NCBI RefSeq assembly: GCF_900107195.1
Contig: NZ_FNPB01000006.1
Span: forward strand, 124,001-188,000
Direction: 5' to 3'
DNA length: 64,000 nucleotides
From: Halobellus clavatus
GTDB lineage: Archaea; Halobacteriota; Halobacteria; Halobacteriales; Haloferacaceae
Positions 13,083-43,970 of the stretch are shown here, piece after piece (position 1 is the stretch's first letter; each line of letters begins with the position of its first letter). Both the position numbers and the translations under genes were made by a program. The notes below the pieces were generated by a model. The model saw nothing but the letters and a program-made list of their open reading frames with translations, searched no databases and was not told the origin of the DNA.

Positions 13083-14416
13083 CCCCGAGGCTTGACCTCG
13101 GGGATGAAGCCGACACGCAGGGATACAAACCATTAACTTAACACATTACTAATCAAGAGACAGCGATGGAATACAGTCACCGCTACCGCGCCTACCCGAC
13201 ACAAGAGGTAGCGGAGCGACTAGAACACCATCTCGACGTTCATCGCCAACTCTACAACCACGTCCGCTGGGACTACGAAAACAGTCCCGAGGACGACAAA
13301 CCGTCCGAGTACGACCAGAACAACAAACTCCCCGAGTGGAAACAACGGTGGCCTGTGTTCGGTGAACTGCACTCGAAAGCTGCGCAAGCCACCGTCGCAC
13401 GCTTCCACCGCAACCTCTCGAATCTTCGCAAGAAGAAAGAGAAGGGGTACAACGTTGGCCGGCTCAAACGGCAATCACCCACCGAGTACCGAAGCGTGAC
13501 GTACAACCAGTCCGGTTTCGACCTCGATGAAAAGAGGGGCCGTGACAGGTTCGCTTACGTCCGCTTCAGCAAAATCGGCTGGGTCAAAATCCGTTACCAC
13601 CGCCCGATTCCCGACCACGCCATCATCAAAGAGGTCACGTTCAAGAAGGCGACAACCGGAGAGTGGTTCGTCTCCTTCGGCCTCGAAACCGACGACATTG
13701 ACCTGTCCGAGAAACCCGACGTGAACTCGCTTGATACGAGCAACAGCGTTGGGATTGACCTTGGCATCCAGAACTACATCCACACTAGCGACGGCAAGAT
13801 CGTGGATTGGCTCGGCCTCGAAGACGAGTACGAGCGTCTTCGCCGTGAACAACGCAAGTTGTCGCGGAAAGAAAAGGGGTCGAACAACTACGAGAAGCAA
13901 CGCCGGGAAGTGGCAAAGGTGAAGCGTCACATCAAGCGGAAGATGCTGGACTACCAGCACAAGATCACGACGTGGCTCGTCCGAGAGTACGACGCTGTAT
14001 TCGTTGAGGACTTGAACGTGAAGGGAATGCTCGAACAGTCGCATAACGCTCGGAACAAGCAGGATGCGGCGTGGAGACAATTCATTACGCTCCTCGAATA
14101 CAAAGCCGACCTGTACGGCTGTCACGTCAAGCAGGTCGAAGCACGAGGCACAACCAAAGAGTGTGCATCGTGCGGTGTGGAAACAGCGAAACCCATCTGG
14201 GTTAGGGAACACTCGTGCCCGTCGTGTGGGTTCGAGACGGACAGAGACGCGAACGCGGCGATGAACGTCTTGCAGAGAGGTTTTTCTGAATTAGGGCTGG
14301 GATGGCCCGAAGACACGCCCGTGGAGACTGTGACCGCTACGGACACGACTCACTTCGAGTCTGTGTCTGCAAGTCACGTCGTAGAAACGGGAAGCCTCGG
14401 GGCTTGACCCCGAGGC
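13083..14416 (+). mobile_element. IS200/IS605-type element carrying only tnpB
   Basis: A tnpB gene framed by two matched hairpins. The left one has an 8-bp stem, CCCCGAGG at 13083-13090 with CCTCGGGG at 13096-13103, and loop CTTGA. The right one has a 9-bp stem, 14394-14402 with 14408-14416, and the same loop CTTGA. Subterminal imperfect palindromes of this kind are recognised by TnpA in IS200/IS605 elements. No tnpA is present, so this is a solo-tnpB (IS1341-type) element that needs TnpA in trans. True ends lie slightly outside the hairpins (GGCGAAT before, GGCGATTCAC after) and were not fixed. The region is less GC-rich than its surroundings. Confidence 0.8.
13166..14407 (+). CDS. tnpB: RNA-guided endonuclease TnpB
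   Basis: A 413-residue TnpB (OrfB) nuclease. The split RuvC catalytic triad is intact: D198 (GIDLGIQNY), E281 (VFVEDLNVKGM) and D361 (TDRDANAAMN). A zinc site between RuvC pieces has C333, C336, C351 and C354. The N terminus (MEYSHRYRAYPT...) is the usual helix-turn-helix/OrfB region. TnpB proteins cut DNA guided by an omega-RNA made from the element's 3' end. Here the stop codon lies in the loop of the right-end hairpin, so the guide scaffold would overlap the coding end. All key residues are present, so it is probably active. Confidence 0.95.
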   Translation: MEYSHRYRAYPTQEVAERLEHHLDVHRQLYNHVRWDYENSPEDDKPSEYDQNNKLPEWKQRWPVFGELHSKAAQATVARFHRNLSNLRKKKEKGYNVGRLKRQSPTEYRSVTYNQSGFDLDEKRGRDRFAYVRFSKIGWVKIRYHRPIPDHAIIKEVTFKKATTGEWFVSFGLETDDIDLSEKPDVNSLDTSNSVGIDLGIQNYIHTSDGKIVDWLGLEDEYERLRREQRKLSRKEKGSNNYEKQRREVAKVKRHIKRKMLDYQHKITTWLVREYDAVFVEDLNVKGMLEQSHNARNKQDAAWRQFITLLEYKADLYGCHVKQVEARGTTKECASCGVETAKPIWVREHSCPSCGFETDRDANAAMNVLQRGFSELGLGWPEDTPVETVTATDTTHFESVSASHVVETGSLGA

Positions 14417-28740: not shown

Positions 28741-29304
28741 TCACTGCTCGGGCTTCCGGCCGATCCCGATTCCCGTTCCCGCCTGCGAGCGGTAGTGAAG
28801 GCTCGCTGAGATCAGGAAGCTCAGGACGATGAGCGCCGCCCAGCCGATGTCGGGGAAGAGTCCGAACGGGAAGACGTCGAACGCGGCGACGACGACCAGA
28901 AGCAGGCTCACCACCCCGAGCGCGAAGTAGTACTCGTGCCAGGGGATGTCGTTGCCACGGACGACGTCGAGGTAAATGTTGATCTCCTCTTTCATCAGCG
29001 TCGGCTCGACCGTCCCCCGGTCTTTGTCGTACACGACGAGACCGGCGCTGTGGAGTTTGGGCAGGTGCAACTGTTGCAGTGCCGTGTACGCTGACTTGCG
29101 CTCCTCGCTCGCGACATCCCCGGCCGCCGTACCGTTCTCGGCGCCGGCGACGCACTCGGCCAGTATGCCGATCTCGTACGTTTCGTTCCTGGACAGTTCG
29201 CGGAGGACGGTCCGCCGGCGTGGGTTCGCCAGTATCTCGAAGAGTACCTCCTCCGTGAGGTTCTCCGGTTCCTCGGGTTCGGGGGCCTCGGAGAGCCGTT
29301 CCAT
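28741..29304 (-). CDS. DUF7344 winged-helix protein with C-terminal membrane anchor
   Basis: A 187-residue protein. Residues about 15-100 are a DUF7344 winged helix: LFEILANPRRRTVLRELS, YTALQQLHLPKLHSAGLVVYDKDRGTVE. Two transmembrane helices follow (YYFALGVVSLLLVVVAAF and IGWAALIVLSFLISASL). A membrane-tethered HTH like this could couple a membrane state to transcription; that is inference. I chose ATG 29304 over GTG 29325 because a TATA box lies 28 bases upstream of the ATG but would sit almost on the GTG. A paralogue occurs at 31095-31631. Confidence 0.85.
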   Translation of the reverse strand: MERLSEAPEPEEPENLTEEVLFEILANPRRRTVLRELSRNETYEIGILAECVAGAENGTAAGDVASEERKSAYTALQQLHLPKLHSAGLVVYDKDRGTVEPTLMKEEINIYLDVVRGNDIPWHEYYFALGVVSLLLVVVAAFDVFPFGLFPDIGWAALIVLSFLISASLHYRSQAGTGIGIGRKPEQ

Positions 29305-29327
29305 CTCGAGGCTGGGGGAAGTCACAC

Positions 29328-31094: not shown

Positions 31095-31631
31095 TCACTC
31101 GAAGTGCGACAGGTAGAGCCAGCGTCGCGTCCAGAGCTGATATAGCGTCGACCCCGCGATGAGCGCAAGAAAGAGACTGGCGAAGACGAGCGGGTCGATC
31201 GCGGAGACGAGCGGCACGCCGGTCAGCGAAAGGACCACGAGAAACAGCGCCATCGTCCCGAGGCTTCGGTAGTACGACGCCCAACTCACGCCGTACTTCG
31301 TCACGACTTCCATATACTGATCGACTTTCCGGGCGAACCGACAGAGCCGGATCGTCTTGCGATCGGAATCGTAGTCGACGACGCCGGCCGAGTCGAGCTT
31401 CGGCAGGTGGCTCTGGTGTAGCGAGATGTACACGCTGTCGCGGATGTTCCGCGGCGCGGGGGTCTGCCCCGTCTCGGACTCAGCGATCTCCTCGGCGAGG
31501 TCGCGCAGCATCACCTCCCGGCGGTGGTCCTGCAGACACTCGATGACGCGCCGGCGGCGGTCGTTCCGGAGGATGTCGTGGATGTCTGTCTCAGAAAGGA
31601 TGGACTCAGGATGCGAGGTGCGGAGGCTCAT
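31095..31631 (-). CDS. DUF7344 winged-helix protein with C-terminal membrane anchor
   Basis: A 178-residue paralogue of 28741-29304. The winged helix lies in residues 15-95 (DIHDILRNDRRRRVIECLQ, RDSVYISLHQSHLPKLDSAGVVDYD), followed by two membrane helices (LGTMALFLVVLSLTGVP and LVFASLFLALIAGSTLYQLW). It is transcribed divergently from the secreted-protein cluster that begins at 32053, from the other side of a 420-base intergenic region. It is therefore the best positional candidate for that cluster's regulator; no direct evidence is available. Confidence 0.85.
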   Translation of the reverse strand: MSLRTSHPESILSETDIHDILRNDRRRRVIECLQDHRREVMLRDLAEEIAESETGQTPAPRNIRDSVYISLHQSHLPKLDSAGVVDYDSDRKTIRLCRFARKVDQYMEVVTKYGVSWASYYRSLGTMALFLVVLSLTGVPLVSAIDPLVFASLFLALIAGSTLYQLWTRRWLYLSHFE

Positions 31632-32052
31632 ACGATACTGAGACGCTACGCGTCGGCAAGCGCATAGTAATCATCCCGTTGAACGGCTGATTCGATGGTT
31701 GAACCGTCGCTTAAAACCGTGATGGATCGACGTTTTCACGGCGAAACTCCGGTAATGACCCATTTCCGACGGCGCTCACCGGGAATGACGACAATACTAT
31801 GCGCGTCTCGGTGAGACACCGCTTTCGAGACCCGCTCACCCGAATTCGGACAGGAGCCGTCTCGGAAACGGCCCGTTAATCCCTCGAGAGGGCCGTTAAC
31901 CTAGAAAATTCGCGATTAGCTATGGGGGTATCCACAGTGGGGGTAGATGCGAAACGACCCACGCTGGACGCCGCGGCCGCCCCGTCTCCGAACGGGAGCT
32001 GCGACGGCGGTTCGACTCCGCCGGTGGGCATCCCCCACGGGGGAGCAAAACC
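31632..32052. promoter_or_regulatory. Divergent regulatory region of the SipW/TasA-like cluster
   Basis: 420 bases without a gene. It has direct repeats that could be operators: CCGGTAATGAC at 31749-31759 and CCGGGAATGAC at 31779-31789, and two copies of CCGTTAA around 31873-31899, about 20 bases apart, flanking CCCTCGAGAGGG. The last 70 bases form the structured leader described separately. No unambiguous TATA box is visible. The length is unusual for a genome this compact. Confidence 0.5.
31981..32044 (+). promoter_or_regulatory. Structured leader element, copy A
   Basis: Three consecutive hairpins: CCCGT-CTCCGA-ACGGG (31981-31996), then a 6-bp stem with a 7-nt loop, CGGCGG-TTCGACT-CCGCCG (32005-32023), then TCCCC...GGGGA (32031-32044). 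The middle hairpin is identical in form to a tRNA T-arm. The element ends 9 bases before the ATG of gene 32053. Copies B and C precede the next two genes. It is probably a 5'-UTR RNA structure; function unknown. Confidence 0.65.
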
Positions 32053-33057
32053 ATGACAGAACGGTTCGAAATCTCACGACGGAAGGCACTGGCGGCACTC
32101 GGAACGATCGGCGTCGCGTCCGCGGGCGCGGGTCTCGGTACGAGCGCGCTGTTCTCCGATCAGGAAACGTTCGAGGACAACACGATCACGGCGGGGACCC
32201 TCGATATGACGGTCACTGCGACGCAGGTCGCGAACAGTTCGGACGCCCCCGGCGAGATCTACTACGACAACCTCGGCCTCCAATCCACGATCGGCGCGTC
32301 GCCCGGCGACGGCGACGGCATCCGACTCGAGGCCGACGACGTCAAGCCCGGCGATTGGGTGGTCTACTGCTTCGAGATCGACGTCGAGGACAACCCCGGC
32401 TACGTGACGATTCACGCGGACAACCTCCTCGAGAGCGGCGGAGCCAACCCCGAGCCCGAGCAGGAGGCAGAGGGTGACAGCGGCAACAGCGCCGACCTGG
32501 GCGAGGCCCTACTCGTGACCCACTGGGGGACATTCAACGGGACTGACCCGGCCTATGACGGCAACGGCACCGTCACGAACGCCGGTGATGTCGCGAATAA
32601 TATGCTCACCGACCTCGAGAATCTCGACAGCACGACGAACAACGCGGGCGGCGTTGCGGTGGGCGCGTACGGCGCCCCGACCGACCTCGACGGCAACGCG
32701 ACAGTGGGCAGCGACTCCGTCCACTACACGAACCTCCGCGAATTCGTCGAGACGTACGACACGGATCCGACGAGCGCACCATTCAACAACACGAACCAAC
32801 CGCCGAACAGCTCGGGCGTCCTCATCCGCAGCGACGACGCCAACAGCACGAACAATCCCGACGCGCCGCAACTCGTCGGCGGCGCGAACACCACCGGTCC
32901 CGGGACGTTCACCTACTACATGCTGGTCGAGCTCCCCTTCGACGTCGGCAACGAGGTCCAGGGCGACAGCGTCCAGTTCGACCTCGGCTGGAGCACCGAA
33001 CAGACCCGCAACAACGACGACCCGCGTAGCGGGATCAGCTTCAACAACTCGAGCTAG
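32053..33057 (+). CDS. SipW-type secreted protein, TasA/camelysin-like (A)
   Basis: A 334-residue exported acidic protein. The N terminus has a twin-Arg (ISRRKALAALGTIG) and hydrophobic core ending in GTSALFSDQETFEDN...AGTLDM, the SipW-type signal pattern. The mature part has DVKPGDWVVYCFEI and DNPGYVTIHADN, an acidic (N)PEPEQEAEGD segment and a C-terminal GNEVQGDSVQFDLGW...EQTRNND motif shared with neighbours. It has many N-glycosylation sequons (for example NSS, NGT, NAT, NST, NTT). I infer a structural fibre or matrix subunit processed by the peptidase at 37978-39129. It is the first gene of the cluster. Confidence 0.85.
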   Translation: MTERFEISRRKALAALGTIGVASAGAGLGTSALFSDQETFEDNTITAGTLDMTVTATQVANSSDAPGEIYYDNLGLQSTIGASPGDGDGIRLEADDVKPGDWVVYCFEIDVEDNPGYVTIHADNLLESGGANPEPEQEAEGDSGNSADLGEALLVTHWGTFNGTDPAYDGNGTVTNAGDVANNMLTDLENLDSTTNNAGGVAVGAYGAPTDLDGNATVGSDSVHYTNLREFVETYDTDPTSAPFNNTNQPPNSSGVLIRSDDANSTNNPDAPQLVGGANTTGPGTFTYYMLVELPFDVGNEVQGDSVQFDLGWSTEQTRNNDDPRSGISFNNSS

Positions 33058-33121
33058 ACACTCGACCCCCAACCCACTCGGAGCACGGTTCGACTCGGTG
33101 CGATCGTGACGCGACGTTCTG

Positions 33122-33200
33122 GGGGTCCCCCTCGGGGAGACCCCGTGCGAGATCGCGGAACGGCGGTTCGACTCCGCCGGTGGGCGTTCCCCGATCGGGG
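33122..33200 (+). promoter_or_regulatory. Structured leader element, copy B
   Basis: A strong hairpin with a 10-bp interrupted stem (33122-33144), then CGGCGG-TTCGACT-CCGCCG (33161-33179), then TCCCC-GAT-CGGGGA (33189-33201), in the same order as copy A. The first hairpin lies 65 bases after the stop of gene A and could double as a terminator or attenuator. The ATG of gene B follows about 42 bases later, with a GGAGGGAG ribosome-binding sequence. Confidence 0.65.
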
Positions 33201-33242
33201 ACGCGGTCCATACCGGGCCGCGACACTCGACGGAGGGAGACT

Positions 33243-35051
33243 ATGACAGAACACGAATTTGACCTCTCACGGCGATCGGTGCTCGGCGCACTCGGAGCCA
33301 TCGGCGCGGCGTCAGCGGGCGCTGGACTCGGTACCAGCGCGCTGTTCAGTGACGAAGAAACATTCGAGGACAACCGGCTCGTCGCTGGCGAACTCGACCT
33401 CAAGATGGACTGGGAGGAACACTACTCGTTCCCCCAGATCTACGGCGAGGGATTCGGCGATCCGACAGTCGGCCTCGATATCCGGGATACCCCTGCCGAC
33501 GGTTACCGCGCGTTCCCGCCGGGACTCGACGAGGAACAGGAGCCCTTTTTCTACGTGAACGAGGGCGACGTGCCGGAGTATATGCGCAAGACCTCGATCG
33601 AGGCGTTCCCCGACACCAACAACGACGGGACCGCGAACCTTTTCGATCTGGTCGGCTTCCCTGGCCGGCCAGGGATTGGGGAATCCGAGCCGTGTGAAGT
33701 CCTGGCAGATGTCGGCGGGGAGAGCGACGGACTCGGCGCGTACGCGGACCTGGAATCCGAAACGATCGGCCGGACGCAGAACGCCGACACGTATGCCGAC
33801 GGCGCCGAGGATCCGGTCCTCCCGCTGATAAACATCGGGGACGTCAAACCCGGCGACTTCGGCGAGATCACGTTCAGTCTGCACCTCTGTGACAACGACG
33901 GCTACGTGTGGATGAACGCCGACAACGTCGCGGCCGACGAGAACGGCGTGATGGAGCCCGAGTCGTCCGAGGAGGTCGAAGGCGACGTCGTCGAACTGCT
34001 CGACGAGATCCAGGTCGCCGCGTGGTACGACAACAACTGCAACAACCTCGTCGACATCGAGCCGGGCGAAGTCGACGTTATGGCCGTCGCGGACACCTCC
34101 GGGTCGATCGATACCGCCGAGAAGCAGAACCGACTCATCGAGGCCGCCAACGCCTTCGTCGAGACGCTCCCCACGGACGGATCGGTTCAGACTGGTCTCG
34201 TGACCTTCGGTGGCGGGACCGTCACCATCACGGACCAGCTCGGTCCCGTCACGCAGTTCCTGGATGGCAATGGGAACGGAGAAGTCGGGAACCGACTGAC
34301 CAGTTTCGGCGGCAACACGCCGATGGCGGGTGCGCTGGAGGCAGCGGAAGCGGAACTCAACAGTAGCGCCGCGCGACCGGGGGCGGACAAGATAATCCTC
34401 CTCGTGACCGACGGCGGGCCCAACTACGCCGAAAACGCCACGTACACCGTATCCACGAGCGACGCCTCCGTGAACCTCGGCCCGTACCCGGGTGGACGGA
34501 CGTCCCCCGGTGCGACGATCAATCAAGAAGAGATCGACGAGACGATCACCATCGCGCAGGGCATCGAATCGAGCGGGATCGATATTCTCACCGCCGGTGT
34601 CCTCACCGATACCGAAGCGGAGGCCGAGAACGTCGAGGGACCGGACAATCTCAACGCGATCCTCCGCCAGATCGCCGGGGCGGTGGAGGACTACTACAAC
34701 ACGGAGTTCGGGCCAGACCTCGTCACCGTCGCTCAACTCATCGCCGCACAGATCACCGCCGGCGACGAGGTGTTCCTCCGCGGGAGCCTCAGAGAGGCGT
34801 TGACAGAGCTGCAAAACGGCGACGGCGTGCCACTCGACGGCGGCCTCGAGACCGCTTTCGACGAGCTCGCGGACCCGGAGACCGACGCCGACCGCCAACC
34901 CTTCGACGCCTCCGCGACCTACTGCGTGGGCTTCTCCTGGTGGCTGCCGCACGCGGTCAGCAACGGAGTCCAATCGGACTCCGTGATGTTCGATCTGGGC
35001 TTCTACACCGAGCAGGCGCGGAACAACGACGGCAGCGGCCAACCCGCCTGA
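33243..35051 (+). CDS. SipW-type secreted protein with inserted vWA domain (B)
   Basis: A 602-residue exported protein. Residues 1-45 are a SipW-type signal with RR at 10-11 and GTSALFSDEETFEDN. Residues 50-265 are the N-terminal half of a TasA-like domain (GDVKPGDFGEITFSLHLCDN, ENGVMEPESSE, ELLDEIQVAAWYDNN). Residues about 277-515 are a von Willebrand factor A domain with an intact MIDAS DTSGS (D284, S286, S288). The TasA-like half resumes at about 535 (GDEVFLRGSLREAL...WWLP...QSDSVMFDLGFYTEQARNND). The vWA thus appears inserted into the fold. MIDAS suggests metal-dependent ligand binding, such as adhesion. Start is ATG 33243. Confidence 0.9.
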   Translation: MTEHEFDLSRRSVLGALGAIGAASAGAGLGTSALFSDEETFEDNRLVAGELDLKMDWEEHYSFPQIYGEGFGDPTVGLDIRDTPADGYRAFPPGLDEEQEPFFYVNEGDVPEYMRKTSIEAFPDTNNDGTANLFDLVGFPGRPGIGESEPCEVLADVGGESDGLGAYADLESETIGRTQNADTYADGAEDPVLPLINIGDVKPGDFGEITFSLHLCDNDGYVWMNADNVAADENGVMEPESSEEVEGDVVELLDEIQVAAWYDNNCNNLVDIEPGEVDVMAVADTSGSIDTAEKQNRLIEAANAFVETLPTDGSVQTGLVTFGGGTVTITDQLGPVTQFLDGNGNGEVGNRLTSFGGNTPMAGALEAAEAELNSSAARPGADKIILLVTDGGPNYAENATYTVSTSDASVNLGPYPGGRTSPGATINQEEIDETITIAQGIESSGIDILTAGVLTDTEAEAENVEGPDNLNAILRQIAGAVEDYYNTEFGPDLVTVAQLIAAQITAGDEVFLRGSLREALTELQNGDGVPLDGGLETAFDELADPETDADRQPFDASATYCVGFSWWLPHAVSNGVQSDSVMFDLGFYTEQARNNDGSGQPA

Positions 35052-35082
35052 GCGAACGGCTCATACGATCTCCCTTTGGACT

Positions 35083-35145
35083 CGGGGTACCCCCCGACGG
35101 CCAGTGGCGGTTCGACTCCGCTCGAGGGCTTCCCCGAAACGGGGA
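35083..35145 (+). promoter_or_regulatory. Structured leader element, copy C
   Basis: Hairpins in the same order: CGGGG/CCCCG (35083 to about 35096), GCGG-TTCGACT-CCGC (35107-35121) and TCCCC-GAAAC-GGGGA (35131-35145). Loop TTCGACT is identical in all three copies, while the stem and the third loop vary with pairing kept, a hint of compensatory conservation. The ATG of gene C is 36 bases downstream. Confidence 0.65.
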
Positions 35146-35180
35146 CCGACCGTCGGTGCGACGGTCAGCGAGGAACACAA

Positions 35181-36869
35181 ATGACAGAATACGAATTCGA
35201 CCTCTCCCGACGGAAGGTCCTCGGCGCGATCGGCGCCGTCGGCGCGGCGTCAGCGGGCGCCGGCCTCGGCACCAGCGCGCTGTTCAGTGACCAGGAATCG
35301 TTCGAAGACAATCAGCTCGTGGCCGGCGAGCTCGACCTCAAAGTCGACTGGGAGGAACACTACTCGTTCCCGCAGATCTACGACCTCCCGGATCCAGCCG
35401 ATGGCCTCGACGTCACCAGGACGCCGCCCGATGACACGGCCGGCTACGTGCCGCTCCCCGATCCGGCGAACCCGCTCGTGTGGGTCGTTGCGGGCGACCT
35501 CGATGCGTATATGTCCAACACGGCGATCGAGTCCTACCCCGACACCGACGGCGACGGGAGCCAGGATCCGTTCGGCGCGACGACGAACGAGGTGACCGTC
35601 GGCGACGTGTGTACCGACGGCGCCGACCTTTCGCAGGACCTCGATCCCACTGTGGAAGGTGCGCTCCGGACGCGCAACGCAGACACATACGACGAAGAAG
35701 CGGAAGCCTACAACCCACTCATCGACCTCGACGACGTGAAACCGGGCGACTTCGGTGAACTCACGCTGAGCTTCCACCTCTGTGATAACCCCGGCTACAT
35801 CTGGCTACAGGGACAGCCCATCGCGGTCAGCGAAGGTGGCATCACTGACCCCGAGGCCGACAGCAGCGACGCCGGTGCGAGTGACGAGTCGCTCAGCCTC
35901 GTCGACGGGGACACGGTGGGAGATATGCTCGGGTCCGACGTCGAACTGCTCGACGAGATCCAGACCGTCTGGTGGTACGACGACGGTGACAACGTCCTCG
36001 GACGTGGGAGCGAGGAGGCGGCCGGCGGGAAAGTCGACCTGGCCTTCATCCACGACCGATCCGGAAGCATGGATAACGAGGCGTCTTTCCTCCAGACGAA
36101 CATCACCAGCGTCGCAACGCAGCTTCAGAACTCGAACGTCGATGCGGCGTTCGGTCTCGTCCCCTACGAGTCGAACAGCGATGGTACGGACGGCGACATC
36201 ACCGAAGTCGTGACCGACATCACGACCGACGCCACGCAACTGGACTTTAGTTTCACCATCGGCGGTGGAACGGAGAACGCGTCTGAAGCGATCGAGTTCG
36301 CGCTGGATAACCTCACCTTTCGGCCGGACGCGAAGAAGATCCTCGTGGTCATCACCGACGAGGACGACGACGGATCACCGGCCGAGCGGACCGCCGCTCT
36401 CAACAGAGTGGACCAAGAGAACGCCTGCCTGCTCGCCGTCTCGCCCAATACGACGGGTTCCGACGAACTCAAGACGATGTCGGAGCAGGTCCAGTGTGGC
36501 GACTGGATCAACATCACCGACGGGCTCTCTCAGCAGATCATCAACGAGCTCGTCGGCTTCGTCACCACGGTCGGTGGCGAGGAGGTCATCTACCGCGGTT
36601 CGCTCCGTGACTCGCTCACGGCGCTCAGCAGCGGGAAGGGAATCCCTCTCGACGGGGATCAGTCGACCCCCTTCGACGAGATTGCTGGGTCCGAAACGGC
36701 ACCGGAACGCGACTGCTACCAGCCGCTCACGACCAATTACCTCGGATTCGCCTGGTGGCTCCCGACGAGCGTCGGCAACGAAGTACAGTCCGATTCCGTG
36801 AGCTTCGACCTGGGCTTCTACACCGAGCAGTGCCGTCACAACGACGGTAGCGGGCAACAGACCGCGTAA
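35181..36869 (+). CDS. SipW-type secreted protein with inserted vWA domain (C)
   Basis: A 562-residue paralogue of gene B, nearly identical over the first 65 residues (SRRKVLGAIGAVGAAS, GTSALFSDQESFEDN, WEEHYSFPQIY). The vWA spans about 285-455 with MIDAS DRSGSM (D292, S294, S296). It sits between ELLDEIQTVWWYDDGDNVL and GGEEVIYRGSLRDSLTAL, which would be contiguous in a plain family member. It ends SVSFDLGFYTEQCRHNDGSG. Several Cys (DVC, HLC, VQCGD, RDC, EQC) could form disulfides outside the cell. The vWA sequence has diverged far more than the flanks, suggesting different binding partners. Confidence 0.9.
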   Translation: MTEYEFDLSRRKVLGAIGAVGAASAGAGLGTSALFSDQESFEDNQLVAGELDLKVDWEEHYSFPQIYDLPDPADGLDVTRTPPDDTAGYVPLPDPANPLVWVVAGDLDAYMSNTAIESYPDTDGDGSQDPFGATTNEVTVGDVCTDGADLSQDLDPTVEGALRTRNADTYDEEAEAYNPLIDLDDVKPGDFGELTLSFHLCDNPGYIWLQGQPIAVSEGGITDPEADSSDAGASDESLSLVDGDTVGDMLGSDVELLDEIQTVWWYDDGDNVLGRGSEEAAGGKVDLAFIHDRSGSMDNEASFLQTNITSVATQLQNSNVDAAFGLVPYESNSDGTDGDITEVVTDITTDATQLDFSFTIGGGTENASEAIEFALDNLTFRPDAKKILVVITDEDDDGSPAERTAALNRVDQENACLLAVSPNTTGSDELKTMSEQVQCGDWINITDGLSQQIINELVGFVTTVGGEEVIYRGSLRDSLTALSSGKGIPLDGDQSTPFDEIAGSETAPERDCYQPLTTNYLGFAWWLPTSVGNEVQSDSVSFDLGFYTEQCRHNDGSGQQTA

Positions 36870-36959
36870 GCTCCTCGCCGCACCGCTGACTCCGGTCCTC
36901 GCGGGTCGGATCCGGCAGGATCCCGTACCGAACGTTTCGAACATCCAAGCAGTAATTAC

Positions 36960-37709
36960 ATGACACACCTCACTCGACGACGGATACTCGCGGCGGCGGT
37001 CGGAGCGGGCCTCCTCACACTCGGTGCCGCGCCGGCCCGAGCAGCCGCCGGCCTGGCGCCGGTGGAACTGACCCAGACGGCGCAGATCCAGTCGGGCGAC
37101 TCGCTGCCCGGGGTCGCGCTCGACTGGCGCGAGACGGTGAACGACAGCGTCGTCGCGGACACCGACCTGACGACGGTCTCGACCGACGCGACGGGCGGCG
37201 TCGGCCTGATCGTCGACGAGGCGGTGCTGCCCGGTGATACCGGCGCCGTCACGCTCCGCGCGACGCTCCTCGATGACGGCGGCGCCCTTCAGAACGCTGA
37301 GCTGGCGCTGTACTTCGCGCTGTCCGATACCGCTGAGAACGGGCTGACCGAACCCGAGCGGGAGGCCGGCGACGACGGCGACCCGGCGGGTGACCTCCAC
37401 ACGACCGCAACGATCTCCATCTGGCGGGATATGGGCGTCGGGACCGGCAACGGCCGCAGCGAGGACATCCCGTTCCTGACCGACGGTGACGAGGCGATCG
37501 CGGCGGGCACGCTGGCGGCGGTGGACGCGAATCCGACCTTCGACGACGGTTACGTCCTCTCGCGCGACGGCGAGACGTGCCTCGCGGTCGGCGATGCGGT
37601 CTACGTCTCGTTCCGGTGGGAGATTCCCCGCGGTGCGGGCAACCTCATCCAGGGCGACAGCGCGCGGTTCACCGTCGGGTTCGTTCCCCGGAGGTGTTCG
37701 GAGGAATGA
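36960..37709 (+). CDS. Secreted TasA/camelysin-like protein (D)
   Basis: A 249-residue exported protein. The signal is RRRILAAAVGAGLLTLGAAPARAAA, with a Sec/Tat-type AxA end rather than the SD(Q/E)E SipW pattern. The mature part shares cluster motifs: ENGLTEPEREAGDDG about mid-protein, FRWEIPRGAGN, and IQGDSARFTVGF at the C terminus. It is the shortest member and carries no extra domain, so it could be a simple fibre or capping subunit (inference). It has no copy of the structured leader upstream. A 268-base gap follows before the peptidase gene. Confidence 0.78.
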   Translation: MTHLTRRRILAAAVGAGLLTLGAAPARAAAGLAPVELTQTAQIQSGDSLPGVALDWRETVNDSVVADTDLTTVSTDATGGVGLIVDEAVLPGDTGAVTLRATLLDDGGALQNAELALYFALSDTAENGLTEPEREAGDDGDPAGDLHTTATISIWRDMGVGTGNGRSEDIPFLTDGDEAIAAGTLAAVDANPTFDDGYVLSRDGETCLAVGDAVYVSFRWEIPRGAGNLIQGDSARFTVGFVPRRCSEE

Positions 37710-37977
37710 ACTCGGGACCGACCGTTCGACGCTCGCGGATTAACGTATCGTTACGCCACCGAACCCCCGACAATCGTCCTGGAAACGCCGTCGATACGAA
37801 CCTTCACGACGGTCATACCCGCAGGCACCAAGGGCCTAACGTATCGATAACTAAGCCCGTTACCGGCCTCCTGAGAGACGTGACAGACAGTCAGTACGCG
37901 ACGGTTCGATCGGCCCCAGGCACGTCTCCACGGGTCGCGGTCGGCCGCCACGGCACGGGGACGGTGGGGGTGATCGA
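37710..37977 (+). promoter_or_regulatory. Intergenic region before the signal peptidase gene
   Basis: 268 bases without a gene. It contains a near-repeat, TAACGTATCGTTA at 37741-37753 and TAACGTATCGATAA around 37835, and a CCCGTTA resembling those upstream of gene A. These could be binding sites for a second promoter inside the cluster. No clear TATA box was identified. Confidence 0.35.
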
Positions 37978-39129
37978 GTGTCGCTGACCGACCGGTCCAC
38001 TCTCCGGCGGGCGGCGAACGTGCTCGGTGTCGTCGTACTGATCGCGCTGGTGGCCCCGTTCGTGGTCTACGGGGTCCCGCAGGTCGTCGGCGCCGACCAG
38101 AGCTTCGTGGTCCTCTCGGGGAGTATGGAGCCCGCGATGAGCCCCGGCGACGTGGTCGTCGTCCGCGACGCCGCCGTCGGCTCGATCGCGGCGGGGGACG
38201 TCATCACCTACCGGACAGACAGCGCGACGCCGACGACCCACCGGGTGATCGAAGTCGTCGAGGCGGATGACGGCACTGCGTATCTGACCAAGGGTGACGC
38301 CAACGAGGACCCCGACAGCGGCCTCGTCACGCACGACCGCGTGATCGGAACGGTCTTCCTGACGATCCCGCTGCTCGGCCACGCCATCGCGTTCGTGAAC
38401 ACGCCCGTCGGCTTCGCCGCGGTCGTGGTGATCCCGCTGGTCCTGTTCGTCGGGGCCGAGCTTCGGTCCCTCGTGGGGTCGATCAGCGCCGCCGCGCCGG
38501 GAGCGACAAGCACGGCGGGGGCGGGCGGTACCGACCCCAGCGACGGTGATCGTGGCGGGACCGACGCTGCCGGTACTGTCGCCGGCGAGGGTCAGTCAGC
38601 CGACGGCGACGGGCCGGAGGCGGAATCGACGGTAGACGGCGACGACACCGATTCCGGCGGCGCGTCGCTCACGCTGACGCGGTCGAGCCTCCAGATCATA
38701 ATCCTGATCTTCGGTGTCTACCTGCCCTACAGCGCCTACGTCGCCTCCGAGCTCCGCACCTCGTGGTCGATCACGATGGCGATCGCAACGGCGATCGGGC
38801 TCCTGTTCGTGATCGGGCTGCACTCCGGGAGCCGATCGGGCGCGGACGCCGACGACGGGGCGGGCGACGACCCGGACGACGACGCGTCCGGTGCGGCGTC
38901 CGAGCAGGGCGACGCCGACGATCGCACGACGGACGACGCGGCCGGAGAGAGTGACGTCGACGACGTGGACGACCCGATCTCGTCACCCACAGCGGCCGCC
39001 GACGGCGGTGGAGCCGCCAACGAGGACCTGATCTGGCAGGTGGACCCCACCGAGACGGCCGACGACACCCCGGCGGCCGACCCCGAGACGGCCGAGTCCG
39101 TCCGCCCCGCGGGAGGCGACGATGAGTGA
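37978..39129 (+). CDS. SipW-type (ER-type) signal peptidase I
   Basis: A 383-residue membrane protease. The catalytic domain (residues 10-150) has nucleophile S49 in VLSGSMEPAMSPGD and H88 in THRVIEV replacing the bacterial Lys. It also has the acidic KGDANEDPD segment, which is the arrangement in archaeal/eukaryotic Sec11 and Bacillus SipW. Membrane helices lie at about 12-35 and 135-155. An unusual extension follows: an acidic linker, two more helices (LQIIILIFGVYLPYSAYV and SITMAIATAIGLLFVIG) and a very acidic 110-residue tail. GTG 37978 is the start. Its position suggests it matures the neighbouring secreted proteins. Confidence 0.93.
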   Translation: MSLTDRSTLRRAANVLGVVVLIALVAPFVVYGVPQVVGADQSFVVLSGSMEPAMSPGDVVVVRDAAVGSIAAGDVITYRTDSATPTTHRVIEVVEADDGTAYLTKGDANEDPDSGLVTHDRVIGTVFLTIPLLGHAIAFVNTPVGFAAVVVIPLVLFVGAELRSLVGSISAAAPGATSTAGAGGTDPSDGDRGGTDAAGTVAGEGQSADGDGPEAESTVDGDDTDSGGASLTLTRSSLQIIILIFGVYLPYSAYVASELRTSWSITMAIATAIGLLFVIGLHSGSRSGADADDGAGDDPDDDASGAASEQGDADDRTTDDAAGESDVDDVDDPISSPTAAADGGGAANEDLIWQVDPTETADDTPAADPETAESVRPAGGDDE

Positions 39130-40195
39130 CCCGGCCGGCTCGCGCGACGGGCCGAGCGGCCTCTCGCGGCGCTCGGTCCTCTACGCGGCCGCGGCGACGG
39201 GCGCGGCGGCCGCCTCGGGCAGCGGTGTGGCCGCCCTGCTCACCGACACTGAACAGGTCAAGACCCGACTGAGCGCGGGCACGCTCGACCTCGACGTGGC
39301 CGTCCTCCGACCGCCGTCGTGGACGGACGGCACTTACACCGGAAAACTCGTGCTCCACGAGGAGCAGACCGCGACGTTCGAGCTCTCGGTCGACACGAAC
39401 CCGGCGTTCGTCTGGCTTATGTCCCCGTGCCCGACCTGCGACGATGTCGAATCGAAGATCGAGGTAGAACTCGAACTGACGCGCCCCGGATCCGGCACGA
39501 CGACGCTGTTCACCGGAACGCTCGATGCGTTCCGCGAGGCGTACGGCCGCGGCGGACTGCTCTCGACGCAGGCGCTTGCGGGCAGCACGGAGACGTGGAC
39601 GGTGACGTTCACGTGGCTGTTGCTCGAACCGTTGGCGGGCGACAGGCCGGGACGCGGACGCGGTACGGGTCGTAAGGCCGCTGCTCCGGACATCGGCTTC
39701 GAGTTCGAATTCCGCGCGATCCAGGAGCGGCACCTCGGGGACCCCGAGCAGTTCGACCTCGGACTGCCGGCCTGCCCCGACTGCGAGCCCGAGTGCGGCA
39801 CGTCGATCAGTTTCGTCGCCTTCTGCGGCGACGGATCGTTCGAGGAGACGGGCCTGTCGTTCGAGACGATCGAGTGCGGCGGGAACTACCCCACGCTGAC
39901 GGTGACGGAGATTCCGTCGGGCGTCGACACCGTCGTGCTCAAGTACGCCTCGTATATGGACGTCTTCCGGTACGACGGCGAGGAGACCCCATTCCGCGTC
40001 ACGACGGGCGGCGGCGACAGCGACCTCGGCCTGATCGCAACCCACGAGCGGGAGAGCGGTAACGAGCACACCGCTGACGGCCAACCGTCGCGGTATCCCA
40101 ACGACCCTTGCTCCGGGGACAACTGGGTGAAATACGAGTTCGACGACGACGGGACCGTCGTGGTCGAACCCGTGGAGGAAGAAGACGATGAGTGA
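39122..40195 (+). CDS. SipW-type secreted Cys-rich protein (E)
   Basis: A 357-residue exported protein overlapping the peptidase gene by 8 bases. The signal has SRRSVLYAAAATGAAAASGSG and AALLTDTEQVKTRLSAGTLDLDV, a SipW-type motif. Mature features are MSPCPTCDDVE (residue ~100), ACPDCEPECG (~218), and further Cys at AFCGDG, IECGGN and NDPCSGDN, so disulfides or metal sites are likely. The C-terminal half is a separate beta-rich domain (LTVTEIPSGVDTVVLKYAS). It is coupled to the peptidase, which suggests it is a primary substrate. Function unknown. Confidence 0.82.
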   Translation: MSDPAGSRDGPSGLSRRSVLYAAAATGAAAASGSGVAALLTDTEQVKTRLSAGTLDLDVAVLRPPSWTDGTYTGKLVLHEEQTATFELSVDTNPAFVWLMSPCPTCDDVESKIEVELELTRPGSGTTTLFTGTLDAFREAYGRGGLLSTQALAGSTETWTVTFTWLLLEPLAGDRPGRGRGTGRKAAAPDIGFEFEFRAIQERHLGDPEQFDLGLPACPDCEPECGTSISFVAFCGDGSFEETGLSFETIECGGNYPTLTVTEIPSGVDTVVLKYASYMDVFRYDGEETPFRVTTGGGDSDLGLIATHERESGNEHTADGQPSRYPNDPCSGDNWVKYEFDDDGTVVVEPVEEEDDE

Positions 40196-40216
40196 CACGA
40201 CGATGGAGAGGCCACG

Positions 40217-41422
40217 ATGACACAGATGCCGGGTGGGACCCGGTCCGGACGACGACTGCTCGCCCTGCTGTTCGCGTTCGCCCTCGTCGCGTCCGCGTCC
40301 GGCAGCGCGACGACCGCGCTGCTGTCGGACCGCGAGTCGGTCGACGTCGGCCTCACCCTCGAGGCCGACCAGTCCGTCTCGACGTTCCGCGTCCAGCCGC
40401 TCGAGACCTGCGAGGTGCCCGAACACCCCGCCGCGTCCGGCTCACTCAGCCTCGCAGAGTGGTTCCAGGTCGAGGGCGACGGCTGCGCGCTGGTCTCCGT
40501 GTGGATCTCGCAGTCGTGGATCGACGGCGTCGGCGTCGAGCCGCACGAGGTCGTGATCGGCCACCGCGGCCCGGACGGCTGGACGTACCTGCAGACCGCG
40601 GTCAGGCGGGACGTCGGCGGTCACTACCTGATGGAGGCGACGACCGACGACTTCAGTCCGTTCGGGCTGTTCGTGCCGAACGCGTCGGTGACAACCGACG
40701 CGAACGCGACGGGAGTCGACGGGGCGGAACCGACCGCGGCAGATCTCGGCGACGCCGACGGGAACGAGACCGCCAACGGGACGGCGACGGCGGTCGACGG
40801 CAACGAGAGCGCGCACACGGCTGCCAACGACACGGCTGCGGACGCCGAGCGGGCCGCCGACGGAACGACGGTGCTCGTCGACGAGAGGTCCGGAAACGAG
40901 TCGACCGGCAGCATACCGGTCGACGACGGAACGGTCGGAACCGCCCCGATCGCGAACACCTCCGGGGAGGAAGCCACCTCCTCCGAGCCAGCGGGCAACG
41001 AGTCCGCGACTGGCGGCGGAGCGACGGACGTGAACGGGAGCGAGACAGACGGCACTCAGGCGGACGGCGGCTCCGGCGGCGCCCCGACCGTCACGGCCCG
41101 GTCCGACGAGACAACCGATGCGGGCGACAGCGACGACCCGACGGCGCCGGAGGGGACGGCCATCAACGGGGACGCCTCGGGCGACGGTTCGACGTCCAGC
41201 GACGCGGCTGACACCGCCGGTGATGGTTCGACGGCGGACGGCGGAACCGCCTCGGAGGGCGAATCCACTGAGTCAGATCCTGCTGCCGGTCACGGAGCGA
41301 CCGACGGGACGATCGAGAGCGGCAGCGACGAGGTCGGATCCGATACCACCGAATCGTCTCCCGACAGCGGGGCCGGCGGCGACACCGACCCCGCGGGCGG
41401 GGACGCTTCGGGTGAGGCCTGA
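40217..41422 (+). CDS. SipW-type secreted protein with long glycosylatable stalk (F)
   Basis: A 401-residue exported protein. The signal is followed by TTALLSDRESVDVGLTLEADQ, a degenerate SipW motif. Residues 45-155 form a compact domain ending RDVGGHYLMEATTDDFSPFGLFV, which resembles the C-terminal region of PGF-pre-PGF type archaeal surface domains (weak). The remaining 245 residues are low-complexity Gly/Ser/Thr/Asp/Glu with about ten N-x-S/T sequons (NAT, NET, NGT, NES, NDT, NGS), as in a glycosylated stalk. It ends in a TGATG overlap with gene G. Confidence 0.75.
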   Translation: MTQMPGGTRSGRRLLALLFAFALVASASGSATTALLSDRESVDVGLTLEADQSVSTFRVQPLETCEVPEHPAASGSLSLAEWFQVEGDGCALVSVWISQSWIDGVGVEPHEVVIGHRGPDGWTYLQTAVRRDVGGHYLMEATTDDFSPFGLFVPNASVTTDANATGVDGAEPTAADLGDADGNETANGTATAVDGNESAHTAANDTAADAERAADGTTVLVDERSGNESTGSIPVDDGTVGTAPIANTSGEEATSSEPAGNESATGGGATDVNGSETDGTQADGGSGGAPTVTARSDETTDAGDSDDPTAPEGTAINGDASGDGSTSSDAADTAGDGSTADGGTASEGESTESDPAAGHGATDGTIESGSDEVGSDTTESSPDSGAGGDTDPAGGDASGEA

Positions 41423-42666
41423 TGGGCGCGCGCGACGCAGCGGACGGTATCTCCAGAAGCCGACTCCTGCTGGTCGTCGTACTCGGCGTGGCACTGATGG
41501 GCGCGGGAGCGGGAGCGCTCTCGGGCGGCGGAGCGCTCTTAGAGAACAGGCCCTTCGGCATCGGGTCGGACAGTGCGCTCTCGGACGCCCCACAGCTCAC
41601 CGTCGCCGCCGCCGACCCGGTCGACGTCCGCAACGACGCCGGGGACGTGGGAACGGTGACGGGATCGCTCGGCGGATCGCTCGTCGTTCGCGACGACGTC
41701 GACCGGATCGAACTCCTCGTTCGCTCCCGGCTCCCGGACGGCAGTAAGGTGGAGAGCACCCGACTGACGACTGGTGCGGTCACCGCAGGGACGGTCGACA
41801 TCGGGTCCACGGTCGGCGGGCCGGGGACGGTGTACCTCGACGCGGACCAGTCAGACGGGTTCGACGTGGCAGTGCCCGGGTCGGTCGCGGTCCGACGTGG
41901 CGCGATCTCGGTGACGGCCCGACTGTTCGCCACGGACGGGACCGTGACGTCGGTGAACGCCGCCGACGAGTACGAGTTCACGGTGGATCGACCGGCGGCC
42001 CGGGTCGTTTCGTTCGGCTCGGGTGACGAGCGCGGGACCCCGACCGTCGAGACGGGACTCGGCGTCGATCGAGACTCCGTCGGAACGCCGTCCCGCGGTG
42101 ACGCCGGACCCTCGCTGTCGGTGCAGACGGCGGGCGGCGGAACGACCGGCGGCAGCGGTAGCGGTGGCACTTCCGACGCCGACGGCACCGACGCCGAACG
42201 CGAGGGCAGCACGGACGGGACCGGGGGCACCGGCACCCCGACGACCGCGCTCTTCACCGCGGGCGGCGTAATGCCGGGGAGCAGCGGCGGGTCGGAGACG
42301 ATCTTCGGCCCGCCGGATCCCGGGCAGGACACCCTCCTGCTCACCGTGGGCGGCGTCGTCGACAACGAGAACGGGCTGACCGAGCCGGAGGCGGAAGTCG
42401 ACGATACCCCATCGGTCGGCGAACTCTCCGCGAACCTCGACATCCGCATCGTCGTCGTCCGCGAGAGCGGCGTACGCCGCTACGTCGCGGGCGGGTCGAA
42501 CGCGTTCGTCCCGCTGGCGTCTGTGAGCGGAGCGAGCGAGTCAGTCCCGGTCGGGGCCAACGAGACGGTCTCGGTGGGCTTCGAGTGGCGGATCGACAGC
42601 GTCGTCGGCAACGAGATCCAGGGCGACAGCACGACGCTGTCGGTCCACGGGCGGTTTACCTCCTGA
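41422..42666 (+). CDS. Secreted TasA/camelysin-like protein (G)
   Basis: A 414-residue exported protein overlapping gene F by one base. An N-terminal hydrophobic helix (LLLVVVLGVALMGAGAGAL) serves as signal or anchor. Residues 55-200 contain beta-type sequence, a Gly/Ser/Thr-rich linker runs to about 275, and the C-terminal domain repeats cluster motifs: NENGLTEPEAEVDD, VSVGFEWRIDSVVGN and EIQGDSTTLSVHG. Together with gene D it forms a pair with the same EPE and QGDS motifs. It is the last gene of the cluster; the next gene is convergent. Confidence 0.8.
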   Translation: MGARDAADGISRSRLLLVVVLGVALMGAGAGALSGGGALLENRPFGIGSDSALSDAPQLTVAAADPVDVRNDAGDVGTVTGSLGGSLVVRDDVDRIELLVRSRLPDGSKVESTRLTTGAVTAGTVDIGSTVGGPGTVYLDADQSDGFDVAVPGSVAVRRGAISVTARLFATDGTVTSVNAADEYEFTVDRPAARVVSFGSGDERGTPTVETGLGVDRDSVGTPSRGDAGPSLSVQTAGGGTTGGSGSGGTSDADGTDAEREGSTDGTGGTGTPTTALFTAGGVMPGSSGGSETIFGPPDPGQDTLLLTVGGVVDNENGLTEPEAEVDDTPSVGELSANLDIRIVVVRESGVRRYVAGGSNAFVPLASVSGASESVPVGANETVSVGFEWRIDSVVGNEIQGDSTTLSVHGRFTS

Positions 42667-42689
42667 GGCGACGTCGATTCCCCCGATCT

Positions 42690-43970
42690 TCACCACACGG
42701 CCAGCCGGTTCAGGACCGCCACCGTCCGCAGCACTGAGCCGGCGTCTCCCGGACCGTACACGAGATCGTCGCGCGATTCGACGTGATCGAGAACCGACTG
42801 CGAGGCGTGTTCCGGCGCGGCGGCGATCCCGGCGTCGGCCGCGTCGGCCCACTCCATCACCCGGAGGTCTGACTTGCTGTCGCCCATCACCAACACGAAG
42901 GGATCCTCGATGCCGAGGACGTCCAGCGCTTCCGTCACGCCGGTCGGTTTGTCCAGATCGAGCGACCCGATCTCGGCCGCGTCGGCGTGGTAGTACGCGA
43001 CGTCGATCCGATCGAACCGCGTCGCCACCTCCGTGGGCACGTCCTCCGGCTCACAGGCGGGGGTGGCGTCCTCGGACGACAGAACCTCCGCGATCTCGGG
43101 GTCTGCCGCGGCGTAGTAGGCCCGGGCCCACTCAGACGATTCCACGGGTTTTTGCTCGCGGTCTCGGCTCCCGATTCCGACGTCGCCCACGCCTTCGACG
43201 CACTCGACGATCGACTGGCCCAAGAGGTCGATGAGGTGGACGAGACCGTCGTCGATGACTTCAGCGGCGGCGTCGCTCCCGACGTCGAAGTTCGGTTTGA
43301 GGGTGACGTTGAACTCGTTGCCCTGCAGGTGGACGGACCGCCTGAGTTCCGGCGGAGCGGCGGTCAGCACCCGTGAGCGGACGCGAGCGAACACGTCTTG
43401 AATCTCCTCGTCGAGTCCCTCGTAGAGCAACCGCTTCGTGTCCGACCCCTGGCCGGGCGTGAACACGCCGGTTCCGGCCTCGTAGACGATACTCAACGAC
43501 CCGGAGTGCACGAGTTCGGTCCCCAGCCCCTGAATCATGAATCCCTTCACGTTCTCGAGGGTCTGGCCCGTACAGATCACGATCGGGACGCCGGCCTCGG
43601 AGAACTCGGTGAGGAGGTGCAGCGTCTCTCGCGGGATCTCGTTGTCCGTCCGCCCGGCCGAGCGGAGGGTCTCGTCGACGTCGAGGACCAGCGCGTTCAC
43701 CGGGCGGCCGTACTCCGCGTGGAGATCGAGCGCCGTGAACGTCTGTTCGCGCGTGGCCCGGGCCGCAACCTCGGCCATCGTCTCGCCCGCCGCGAACGAC
43801 TCACCGATCTCGCGCTTGCGGTCCTCGAGTTCGTCGCTGGCGTCCTGCCAGTACTCGAGCGCCACGCGGGAGTCGACGGGCGGAAAGAGGTCGACGAAGT
43901 TCTGGAGATCGTAGAGCGTGTCGGTCTCGTACTCCTCGTAGAGACGGTATAGGAGATCGTACCGGTCCAT
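42690..43970 (-). CDS. HAD-superfamily hydrolase
   Basis: A 426-residue cytosolic protein. A helical N-terminal extension (residues 1-95, RYDLLYRLYEEYE...) precedes a HAD phosphatase domain. Motif I is LVLDVDETLRS, motif II ICTGQTLENV, motif III lies around LDKPTGVTEAL, and motif IV is VMGDSKSDLRVM. The long cap region suggests a Cof/phosphosugar-type phosphatase. The long N-terminal extension is not standard, and the substrate is unknown. ATG 43970 is chosen; the extension to 44126 reads through the divergent promoter region. Confidence 0.82.
   Translation of the reverse strand: MDRYDLLYRLYEEYETDTLYDLQNFVDLFPPVDSRVALEYWQDASDELEDRKREIGESFAAGETMAEVAARATREQTFTALDLHAEYGRPVNALVLDVDETLRSAGRTDNEIPRETLHLLTEFSEAGVPIVICTGQTLENVKGFMIQGLGTELVHSGSLSIVYEAGTGVFTPGQGSDTKRLLYEGLDEEIQDVFARVRSRVLTAAPPELRRSVHLQGNEFNVTLKPNFDVGSDAAAEVIDDGLVHLIDLLGQSIVECVEGVGDVGIGSRDREQKPVESSEWARAYYAAADPEIAEVLSSEDATPACEPEDVPTEVATRFDRIDVAYYHADAAEIGSLDLDKPTGVTEALDVLGIEDPFVLVMGDSKSDLRVMEWADAADAGIAAAPEHASQSVLDHVESRDDLVYGPGDAGSVLRTVAVLNRLAVW

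Follow-up and report, generated by a model that had tools for sequence, protein, structure and literature searches.

What does a haloarchaeon build with a run of genes that places a signal peptidase among exported proteins, and what part is played by the tRNA-like RNA elements that precede several of these genes? We considered this question for a cluster of eight open reading frames (ORFs) in a 64,000-nt chromosomal stretch (the window, positions numbered from its first letter) of contig NZ_FNPB01000006.1 from the 3.75-Mb draft assembly of Halobellus clavatus. The ORFs, all on the + strand at 32053–42666, agree in number, direction and coordinates with the initial annotation, which had read the cluster as a TasA-type fibre or matrix system. 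We estimate at roughly two in three the probability that it is a haloarchaeal TasA-type surface-fibre or adhesin operon with tRNA-like elements (t-elements) that punctuate its mRNA. The functional locus is larger than the eight genes: it reaches left to a divergent DUF7344 gene and includes conserved non-coding RNA elements in the gaps. Its features are listed below, where A–H are the eight cluster genes in order and R1 is the covariance model of the leader element.

31095–31631, − strand: DUF7344 protein, winged-helix-like, with hydrophobic C-terminal stretches (Pfam PF24035, 106.7 bits)
31912–31929, + strand: promoter-like motif GCGATTAGCTATGGGGGT before the first gene (a kin motif lies upstream of the first gene at 9 of 23 loci)
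31957–32029, + strand: t-element, leader of A (R1, 40.8 bits)
32031–32044, + strand: hairpin UCCCCC-AC-GGGGGA between the t-element and the start codon of A
32053–33057, + strand: A, TasA/camelysin-type exported protein, 334 aa (PF12389, 26.6 bits; TIGR04088, 33 bits; Foldseek match to 8aur)
33140–33185, + strand: t-element in the A–B gap (R1, 38.3 bits)
33186–33202, + strand: hairpin GUUCCC..GGGGAC, 3' of the A–B t-element
33243–35051, + strand: B, TasA-type protein with SipW signal and inserted VWA domain, 602 aa (VWA_2, 41.2 bits; TIGR04088, 22 bits)
35089–35129, + strand: t-element in the B–C gap (R1, 23.7 bits)
35131–35145, + strand: hairpin UCCCCG-AAA-CGGGGA, 3' of the B–C t-element
35181–36869, + strand: C, TasA-type protein with SipW signal and inserted VWA domain, 562 aa (VWA, 32.5 bits; TIGR04088, 27.1 bits)
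36960–37709, + strand: D, small exported TasA-type protein, 249 aa (hhalign to A/B/C)
37978–39129, + strand: E, archaeal/SipW-type signal peptidase I with acidic C-terminal extension, GTG start, 383 aa (TIGR02228)
39122–40195, + strand: F, exported protein with a Tat/SipW-like signal, 357 aa, overlapping the end of E (TIGR01409, 17.1 bits, cut-off 16.7)
40217–41422, + strand: G, exported protein with low-complexity acidic tail, 401 aa (partial PGF-pre-PGF, TIGR04213, 23.1 bits, below cut-off)
41422–42666, + strand: H, exported protein whose C-terminal ~140 aa form a predicted TasA-type core, 414 aa (hhalign)

TasA-type proteins and their export

Protein E scores 114.7 bits against TIGR02228 (cut-off 51.85) and shows, on inspection, the Ser-His arrangement of the Sec11/endoplasmic reticulum (ER)/SipW type (LSGSM...THRV), so that its earlier assignment as an ER/SipW-type signal peptidase holds; the Bacillus-specific SipW model NF046067 gives 100 bits, under its cut-off of 190. 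The SipW-type signal model TIGR04088 recognizes A, B and C above cut-off, the only three such proteins in the genome, and the locus thus combines TIGR04088 substrates with a linked ER-type Ser-His signal peptidase, as in SipW-dependent export. F (ALLTDTE) and G (ALLSDRE) carry a SipW-like motif only and score below TIGR04088, and no SipW-type signal motif was found in D and H with the model or by reading the sequence. The initial annotation had seen seven exported acidic proteins, most of them with a SipW signal. Export stands, with the correction that B and C, which carry VWA domains, are more than plain secreted proteins, and 'most' comes to five of seven when F and G are counted by motif.

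The M73/TasA profile PF12389 matches A above its cut-off (26.6 against 22.5 bits) and B below it (15.1 bits); the Pfam search found no PF12389 match in C–H and no family match of any kind in D. Comparison of profiles with hhalign aligned D with A/B/C at a probability of 99.4% (E = 5e-22), and H with A/B/C at 96.4% and with D at 97.3%. The same five proteins have an E/D-P-E motif (NPEPE, MEPE, TDPE, TEPE and TEPE in A, B, C, D and H, respectively) and a C-terminal N-x-(V/I)Q(G/S)DS motif, both of which had been correctly noted before; because hhalign unites D and H with A/B/C, these shared motifs go beyond chance. Thus, A, B, C, D and H have a common predicted TasA-type core.

The predicted structure of A, a low-confidence model with a predicted local distance difference test (pLDDT) score of 52, has a single Protein Data Bank (PDB) match at E < 0.001, namely the cryo-EM structure of the TasA fibre, 8aur (Foldseek E = 5.6e-4, probability 0.99, TM score 0.30/0.41). 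Of the comparisons that had been proposed as checks, the profile search came out on the side of a TasA relationship, A passing PF12389 and, together with B and C, TIGR04088, and the weak model of A did not bring up the unrelated fold that would have spoken against one. In B and C, the TasA-type frame encloses a VWA domain (Pfam VWA/VWA_2, above cut-off) with, by inspection, a complete metal ion-dependent adhesion site (MIDAS; DxSxS, T, D), which reads DTSGS/T/D in B and DRSGS/T/D in C. The AlphaFold2 model of B (17-sequence alignment, pLDDT 69) has as its top structural match the pilus adhesin SpaC (E = 5e-12), followed by integrin I domains, Plasmodium TRAP, the Mfa5 pilus tip and the PilB minor pilin. 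The models of A and B thus support a view of these proteins as TasA-type subunits, some of which would bear adhesin domains.

Some relatives have TasA-type frames with different inserts or C-terminal domains (L034:14002–16386, L037:10515–12281 and L034:12231–13871), which by eye were named a choice-of-anchor-like insert, a C-terminal VWA-like domain and a repetitive beta-rich domain. To the eye, the TasA-type frame of these relatives looks like a modular display platform.

Of 293 genomes from the order, 108 contain relatives of B, as do 49 of 87 genera; the closest named relative at the locus is Halobellus sp. Atlit-31R, with 70% identity in B. Annotated examples come from Halorubrum ezzemoulense, Halomontanus rarus, Natrarchaeobaculum sulfurireducens and Natronorubrum bangense. 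We surveyed 23 non-duplicate loci, counting the peptidase within the fetched stretch. They contain 2–7 TasA/VWA genes each, after which a D-like gene, an F-like gene and the peptidase usually come; in many loci the D-like gene separates the TasA array from the peptidase. F homologues adjoin the peptidase, and a close homologue of G is present in the Halobellus locus only. Since the TasA/VWA genes cluster and a peptidase homologue is present at 21 of the 23 loci, the picture of homologues scattered singly through other genomes does not apply. With the M73 match of A and the clustering of the homologues with the peptidase, a self-contained TasA-type export and assembly locus, as the initial annotation had proposed, is well supported. 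We found no relatives of B among phage records, and a viral origin is therefore unsupported.

At 22 of the 23 loci a divergent DUF7344 gene lies 43–455 bp from the first TasA gene. The DUF7344 protein is a candidate membrane-bound regulator of the fibre operon, and GCGATTAGCTATGGGGGT may have a promoter-like role. Elsewhere in the window, a second DUF7344 protein is encoded near the cluster (28741–29325, − strand), and an ORF at 13166–14407 was judged by eye to be TnpB-like (IS200/IS605-type).

tRNA-like elements in the leaders

Genes A, B and C are each preceded by a tRNA-like element consisting of an acceptor stem and a T-arm, followed by a hairpin and the AUG. The T-loop has the consensus UUCGAYU, and a perfect tRNA T-arm, GGCGG-TTCGACT-CCGCC, is found before A and B and, with one mismatch, before C. 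Copy A is intact: its 5' ACCCAC pairs with GUGGGC, its T-arm reads CGGCGG-UUCGACU-CCGCCG, GG occupies the D-loop position, and the minimum-free-energy fold consists of acceptor stem, T-arm and hairpin. Copy B, in the A–B gap, has lost one acceptor pair. The spacing from element to AUG is 23 nt for A, 57 nt for B and 51 nt for C. The full form, seen in relatives, is ACCCAC-N-GG...T-arm...GUGGGU, including the D-loop-like GG, then UUCCCC..GGGG and then AUG.

Model R1 was built from 23 short-loop copies, all of them from TasA leaders, and its top three hits in the Hbs. clavatus genome are the leaders of A, B and C (40.8, 38.3 and 23.7 bits), the next hit scoring 21.5. A search of Rfam at E values up to 1 gave no match in the region 31500–42800, and ARAGORN reported a degenerate tRNA-??? 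at copy A alone. A complete cloverleaf with an anticodon arm was not found; most elements have 8–30 nt between the acceptor strand and the T-arm.

Because the seed alignment (A3) was picked by pattern, so that its invariant columns are partly so by construction, covariation was counted on wider sets (A4 and A8), which were found and aligned with the model and are still biased towards it. In 75 hits from cluster loci, 94.6% of the pair cells are paired, and both-sided changes occur at 7 of the 12 pairs (35 cells, compared with 10.6 after shuffling and at most 6 in slid registers). A further 60 hits gave 95.3% paired cells and both-sided changes at 10 of the 12 pairs (65 cells, compared with 15.9 after shuffling and no more than 3 in slid registers). 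In these 60, G stands at loop positions 3 and 4 (counting from 0) in 58 and 49 cases, at the place that the D-loop GG has in tRNA, and this GG may, by analogy, dock on the T-loop. A stem of 5 bp or more follows directly 3' of the element in 47 of 63 leaders, against a mean of 10 and a maximum of 18 after shuffling; it is built from 43 different sequences, and the median distance from element to AUG is 23 nt. The element is thus a covarying acceptor stem on a T-arm with a T-loop, i.e. it has the structure of a t-element.

R1 also detects an element that ends 2–7 nt before 5S rRNA genes. In Haloferax volcanii, a tRNA-like structure directly upstream of 5S rRNA is cut by tRNase Z, and t-elements have been used as RNase P/tRNase Z processing cassettes (PMC4326828, PMC3296008, PMC4946936). 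The 5S locus of Hbs. clavatus itself has, on inspection, a divergent t-element with a long insert, which R1 matches in part (15.3 bits). In form, the leader elements are of the same kind as the pre-5S t-element. Tandem 5S genes were seen in L097, L099, L103, L106 and L107, several of them with a t-element for each copy. RNase P of bacteria, archaea and eukaryal nuclei recognizes its substrates mainly by the acceptor stem plus the T domain, and a construct of acceptor stem and T-arm that has a 9-nt bulge on its 5' side has served as a minimal substrate (PMC12630138); the leader elements share this anatomy. In Hfx. volcanii, 72% of transcripts are leaderless and structured leaders have been judged untypical (PMC4983044), which makes a conserved structured leader unusual in haloarchaea.

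In the cluster loci, the element precedes 52 of 91 TasA/VWA genes, and it does so far more often for internal TasA genes (47/68) than for the first one (5/23; Fisher P = 1.6e-4), whereas none of 22 peptidase genes has it. At one other locus (L093), unlike the main clusters, an element stands before a SipW-type signal peptidase gene. At E values up to 0.01, R1 has hits, those before 5S rRNA included, in 109 of 243 genomes of the order; in a 197-genome sample of the phylum, no element was found outside the order. The element is thus widespread in Halobacteriales. We inspected 57 genome hits beyond the loci already fetched, which are not a random sample: 25 precede TasA/VWA genes, 3 D-like genes, 6 DUF1102-type genes, 2 DUF1102-like 'APLF' genes and 4 genes of another exported family, 7 lie directly before 5S rRNA and 10 are unclear. 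That the same t-element precedes DUF1102-type genes suggests that DUF1102 proteins fall into one class of export and regulation with the TasA-type ones.

DUF1102-type genes with the element and a GTGAFTSVEADR-type signal were noted at L068, L071, L075, L079, L082, L087, L089 and L095, and also at L118, L121, L132, L155 and L159. Before exported families that have no Pfam match (MQSRRTVLG..., MNxDRRRLLG...; L078, L080, L092, L125, L127, L130 and L135), the element lies a few nucleotides from the AUG and leaves no room for a hairpin. A search of 7.3 Gb of plasmid sequence with the 55-nt consensus returned six records, all haloarchaeal and all among the 12 plasmid records with TasA/VWA relatives; in the three that were read closely, the matches fall in unannotated gaps directly upstream of SipW-signal or hypothetical genes of the cluster. 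One contig of a viral collection (L175, IMGVR_UViG_649989981_000001) has one exact match to the core of the element.

Proposed mechanism and its rivals

With somewhat better than even confidence, we favour a mechanism in which minimal tRNA mimics let housekeeping tRNA-processing enzymes split the mRNAs of TasA/DUF1102-type surface proteins into single-gene messages, each with a protective 5' hairpin. In the leaders of A, B and C, as in those of most internal TasA-type genes of relatives, the RNA folds into a tRNA mimic: 6 bp of acceptor stem stack on 6 bp of T-stem, the T-loop is canonical, a GG resembles that of the D-loop, and roughly 8–30 nt bulge out on the 5' side. By analogy with the pre-5S element, tRNase Z would cut one nucleotide 3' of this mimic and RNase P would cut on its 5' side. 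The new mRNA would start at UUCCCC..GGGGA and have, in most relatives, a terminal hairpin and a leader of ~20–25 nt to the AUG. The hairpin may stabilize the message, and separate mRNAs for the fibre subunits would allow their stability and ratio to be set apart from the element-free peptidase. At the protein level, A, B, C, D and H would be exported via their N-terminal signals, matured by the operon-encoded Ser-His peptidase E and joined through their TasA-type beta-sandwich cores into a putative fibre; A or A-like proteins would probably make up its bulk, and B and C would display the MIDAS-bearing VWA domains as adhesive subunits; the divergent DUF7344 protein would probably control the operon.

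Several observations weigh against this combined picture. The AlphaFold model of A is poor, as its pLDDT indicates, the TasA frame in the model of B is only moderately confident, and the A/B/C profile found no match among PDB sequences. Copy C, in the B–C gap, has kept its T-arm with a degenerate acceptor stem and is the weakest of the three. No element is detectable before 39 of the 91 TasA-type genes (43%), and so it is not obligatory. Furthermore, Hoelzle et al. (2012) are said to have predicted dozens more t-elements in Hfx. volcanii, and selected ones were reportedly uncut in vitro.

That last report would suit a leader that is structured and stays uncut, such as a site that imitates the tRNA elbow to bind a protein or control translation, while the hairpin gates the start codon. 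RNAs in general use T-loops for folding and binding, and the AUG lies at a fixed distance of ~23 nt in most relatives, with the hairpin in between. We nevertheless think this unlikely, as tRNase Z cuts this kind of element before 5S rRNA, and control of translation by structured leaders has been judged untypical of haloarchaea (PMC4983044). The length of the insert between acceptor strand and T-arm also varies freely, as processing substrates tolerate. On the protein side, A–H might include TasA relatives that form no fibres and act as separate surface adhesins or S-layer-associated proteins with a common export route. The cores are heavily decorated, with VWA inserts and, in relatives, extra C-terminal domains, and family M73 includes proteins named as peptidases; we doubt this alternative, because 2–7 paralogues with a dedicated peptidase in one operon, and the match of A to the TasA fibre, fit the subunits of a heteropolymer better, and VWA proteins are known from pilus tips (SpaC, Mfa5, PilB).

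Two further explanations place the repeats at the level of DNA. As near-identical copies flanking paralogous, domain-shuffled genes, they could be recombination sites or cassette boundaries (integron-like or tRNA-derived integration sites) that shuffle TasA-type genes, and tRNA-like sequences are common integration targets. Such an origin is very improbable given that compensatory changes preserve the pairing and not the sequence, that the AUG lies at a fixed distance behind a covarying hairpin, and that the same element occurs before 5S rRNA and before single genes elsewhere. The degenerate tRNA call of ARAGORN and the conserved T-arm sequences might point to remnants of real tRNA genes, or to a DNA-level promoter motif, that merely coincide with the genes. 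This we find hardly credible: covariation and specificity speak against it, R1 ranks the three leaders above everything else in the genome, true tRNAs included, and all six plasmid records with the consensus are haloarchaeal and carry TasA/VWA genes. Accordingly, a degenerate tRNA gene was rejected (no cloverleaf, and lower R1 scores for true tRNAs than for the leaders), and so was a promoter motif or integration site at the DNA level, in view of the compensatory changes, the constant distance to the AUG and the element before 5S.

Significance and relation to known systems

The observation in the initial annotation was right and its interpretation is partly supported; it was incomplete in that the VWA/MIDAS domains, the conserved DUF7344 gene and the tRNA-like leaders, the least expected of the three, had been overlooked. 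The protein locus is of a known kind, a TasA-type system, to which it adds VWA/MIDAS adhesins apparently built into a TasA-type frame. What is new is that comparative evidence ties t-elements to a class of surface-protein mRNAs. In archaea, tRNase Z and RNase P are regarded as enzymes of tRNA that act on little else. If the elements are processed, a class of surface-protein mRNAs across Halobacteriales would be under the control of these two enzymes, the building of the cell surface would be linked to the maturation machinery of tRNA and 5S rRNA, and a prokaryotic route to subunit ratios inside a pilus-like operon would come into view. The element also offers a simple way to find haloarchaeal TasA/DUF1102-type surface systems in genomes, where many carry no annotation beyond 'hypothetical', and its copies are clean substrates for probing what makes a tRNA mimic cleavable.

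The tapA-sipW-tasA operon of Bacillus subtilis likewise encodes a SipW-type peptidase together with TasA-type subunits that bear the matching signal, and its TasA fibre (8aur) is linked to A by the M73/TasA profile and, tentatively, by the match of the low-confidence A model to the fibre form. The haloarchaeal loci differ in having 2–7 TasA-type subunits, VWA subunits, a DUF7344 neighbour and tRNA-like leaders, and no counterpart of TapA was recognized in the locus studied here. The archaeal bundling pili of Pyrobaculum (AbpA) are TasA-related filaments assembled by donor strands (PMC9674648). They resemble the present system in consisting of archaeal TasA-related subunits and differ from it in phylum and in that the A/B/C profile matches no PDB sequence. 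We know of no VWA subunits or t-elements in the AbpA system. Pilus-tip adhesins with VWA/MIDAS domains (SpaC, the PilB minor pilin, Mfa5) are, with integrin I domains, the best matches of the B model; their VWA domains are parts of sortase, type IV or type V pilins, whereas that of B appears to lie within a TasA-type frame behind a SipW signal.

As for the RNA, the pre-5S t-element of Hfx. volcanii has the same acceptor stem, T-arm and T-loop, with GG at the D-loop position. Its acceptor is usually GUCGGC and it precedes a structural RNA, whereas the fibre leaders have GUGGGU/C and precede protein genes, with an additional hairpin and an AUG. In the tRNA punctuation of organellar transcripts and in mascRNA/MALAT1, a tRNA or tRNA-like structure likewise lies within a longer RNA and is cut by RNase P and RNase Z (PMC4919922); what distinguishes the haloarchaeal case is a minimal acceptor stem and T-arm that is repeated before paralogous genes of a prokaryotic operon.

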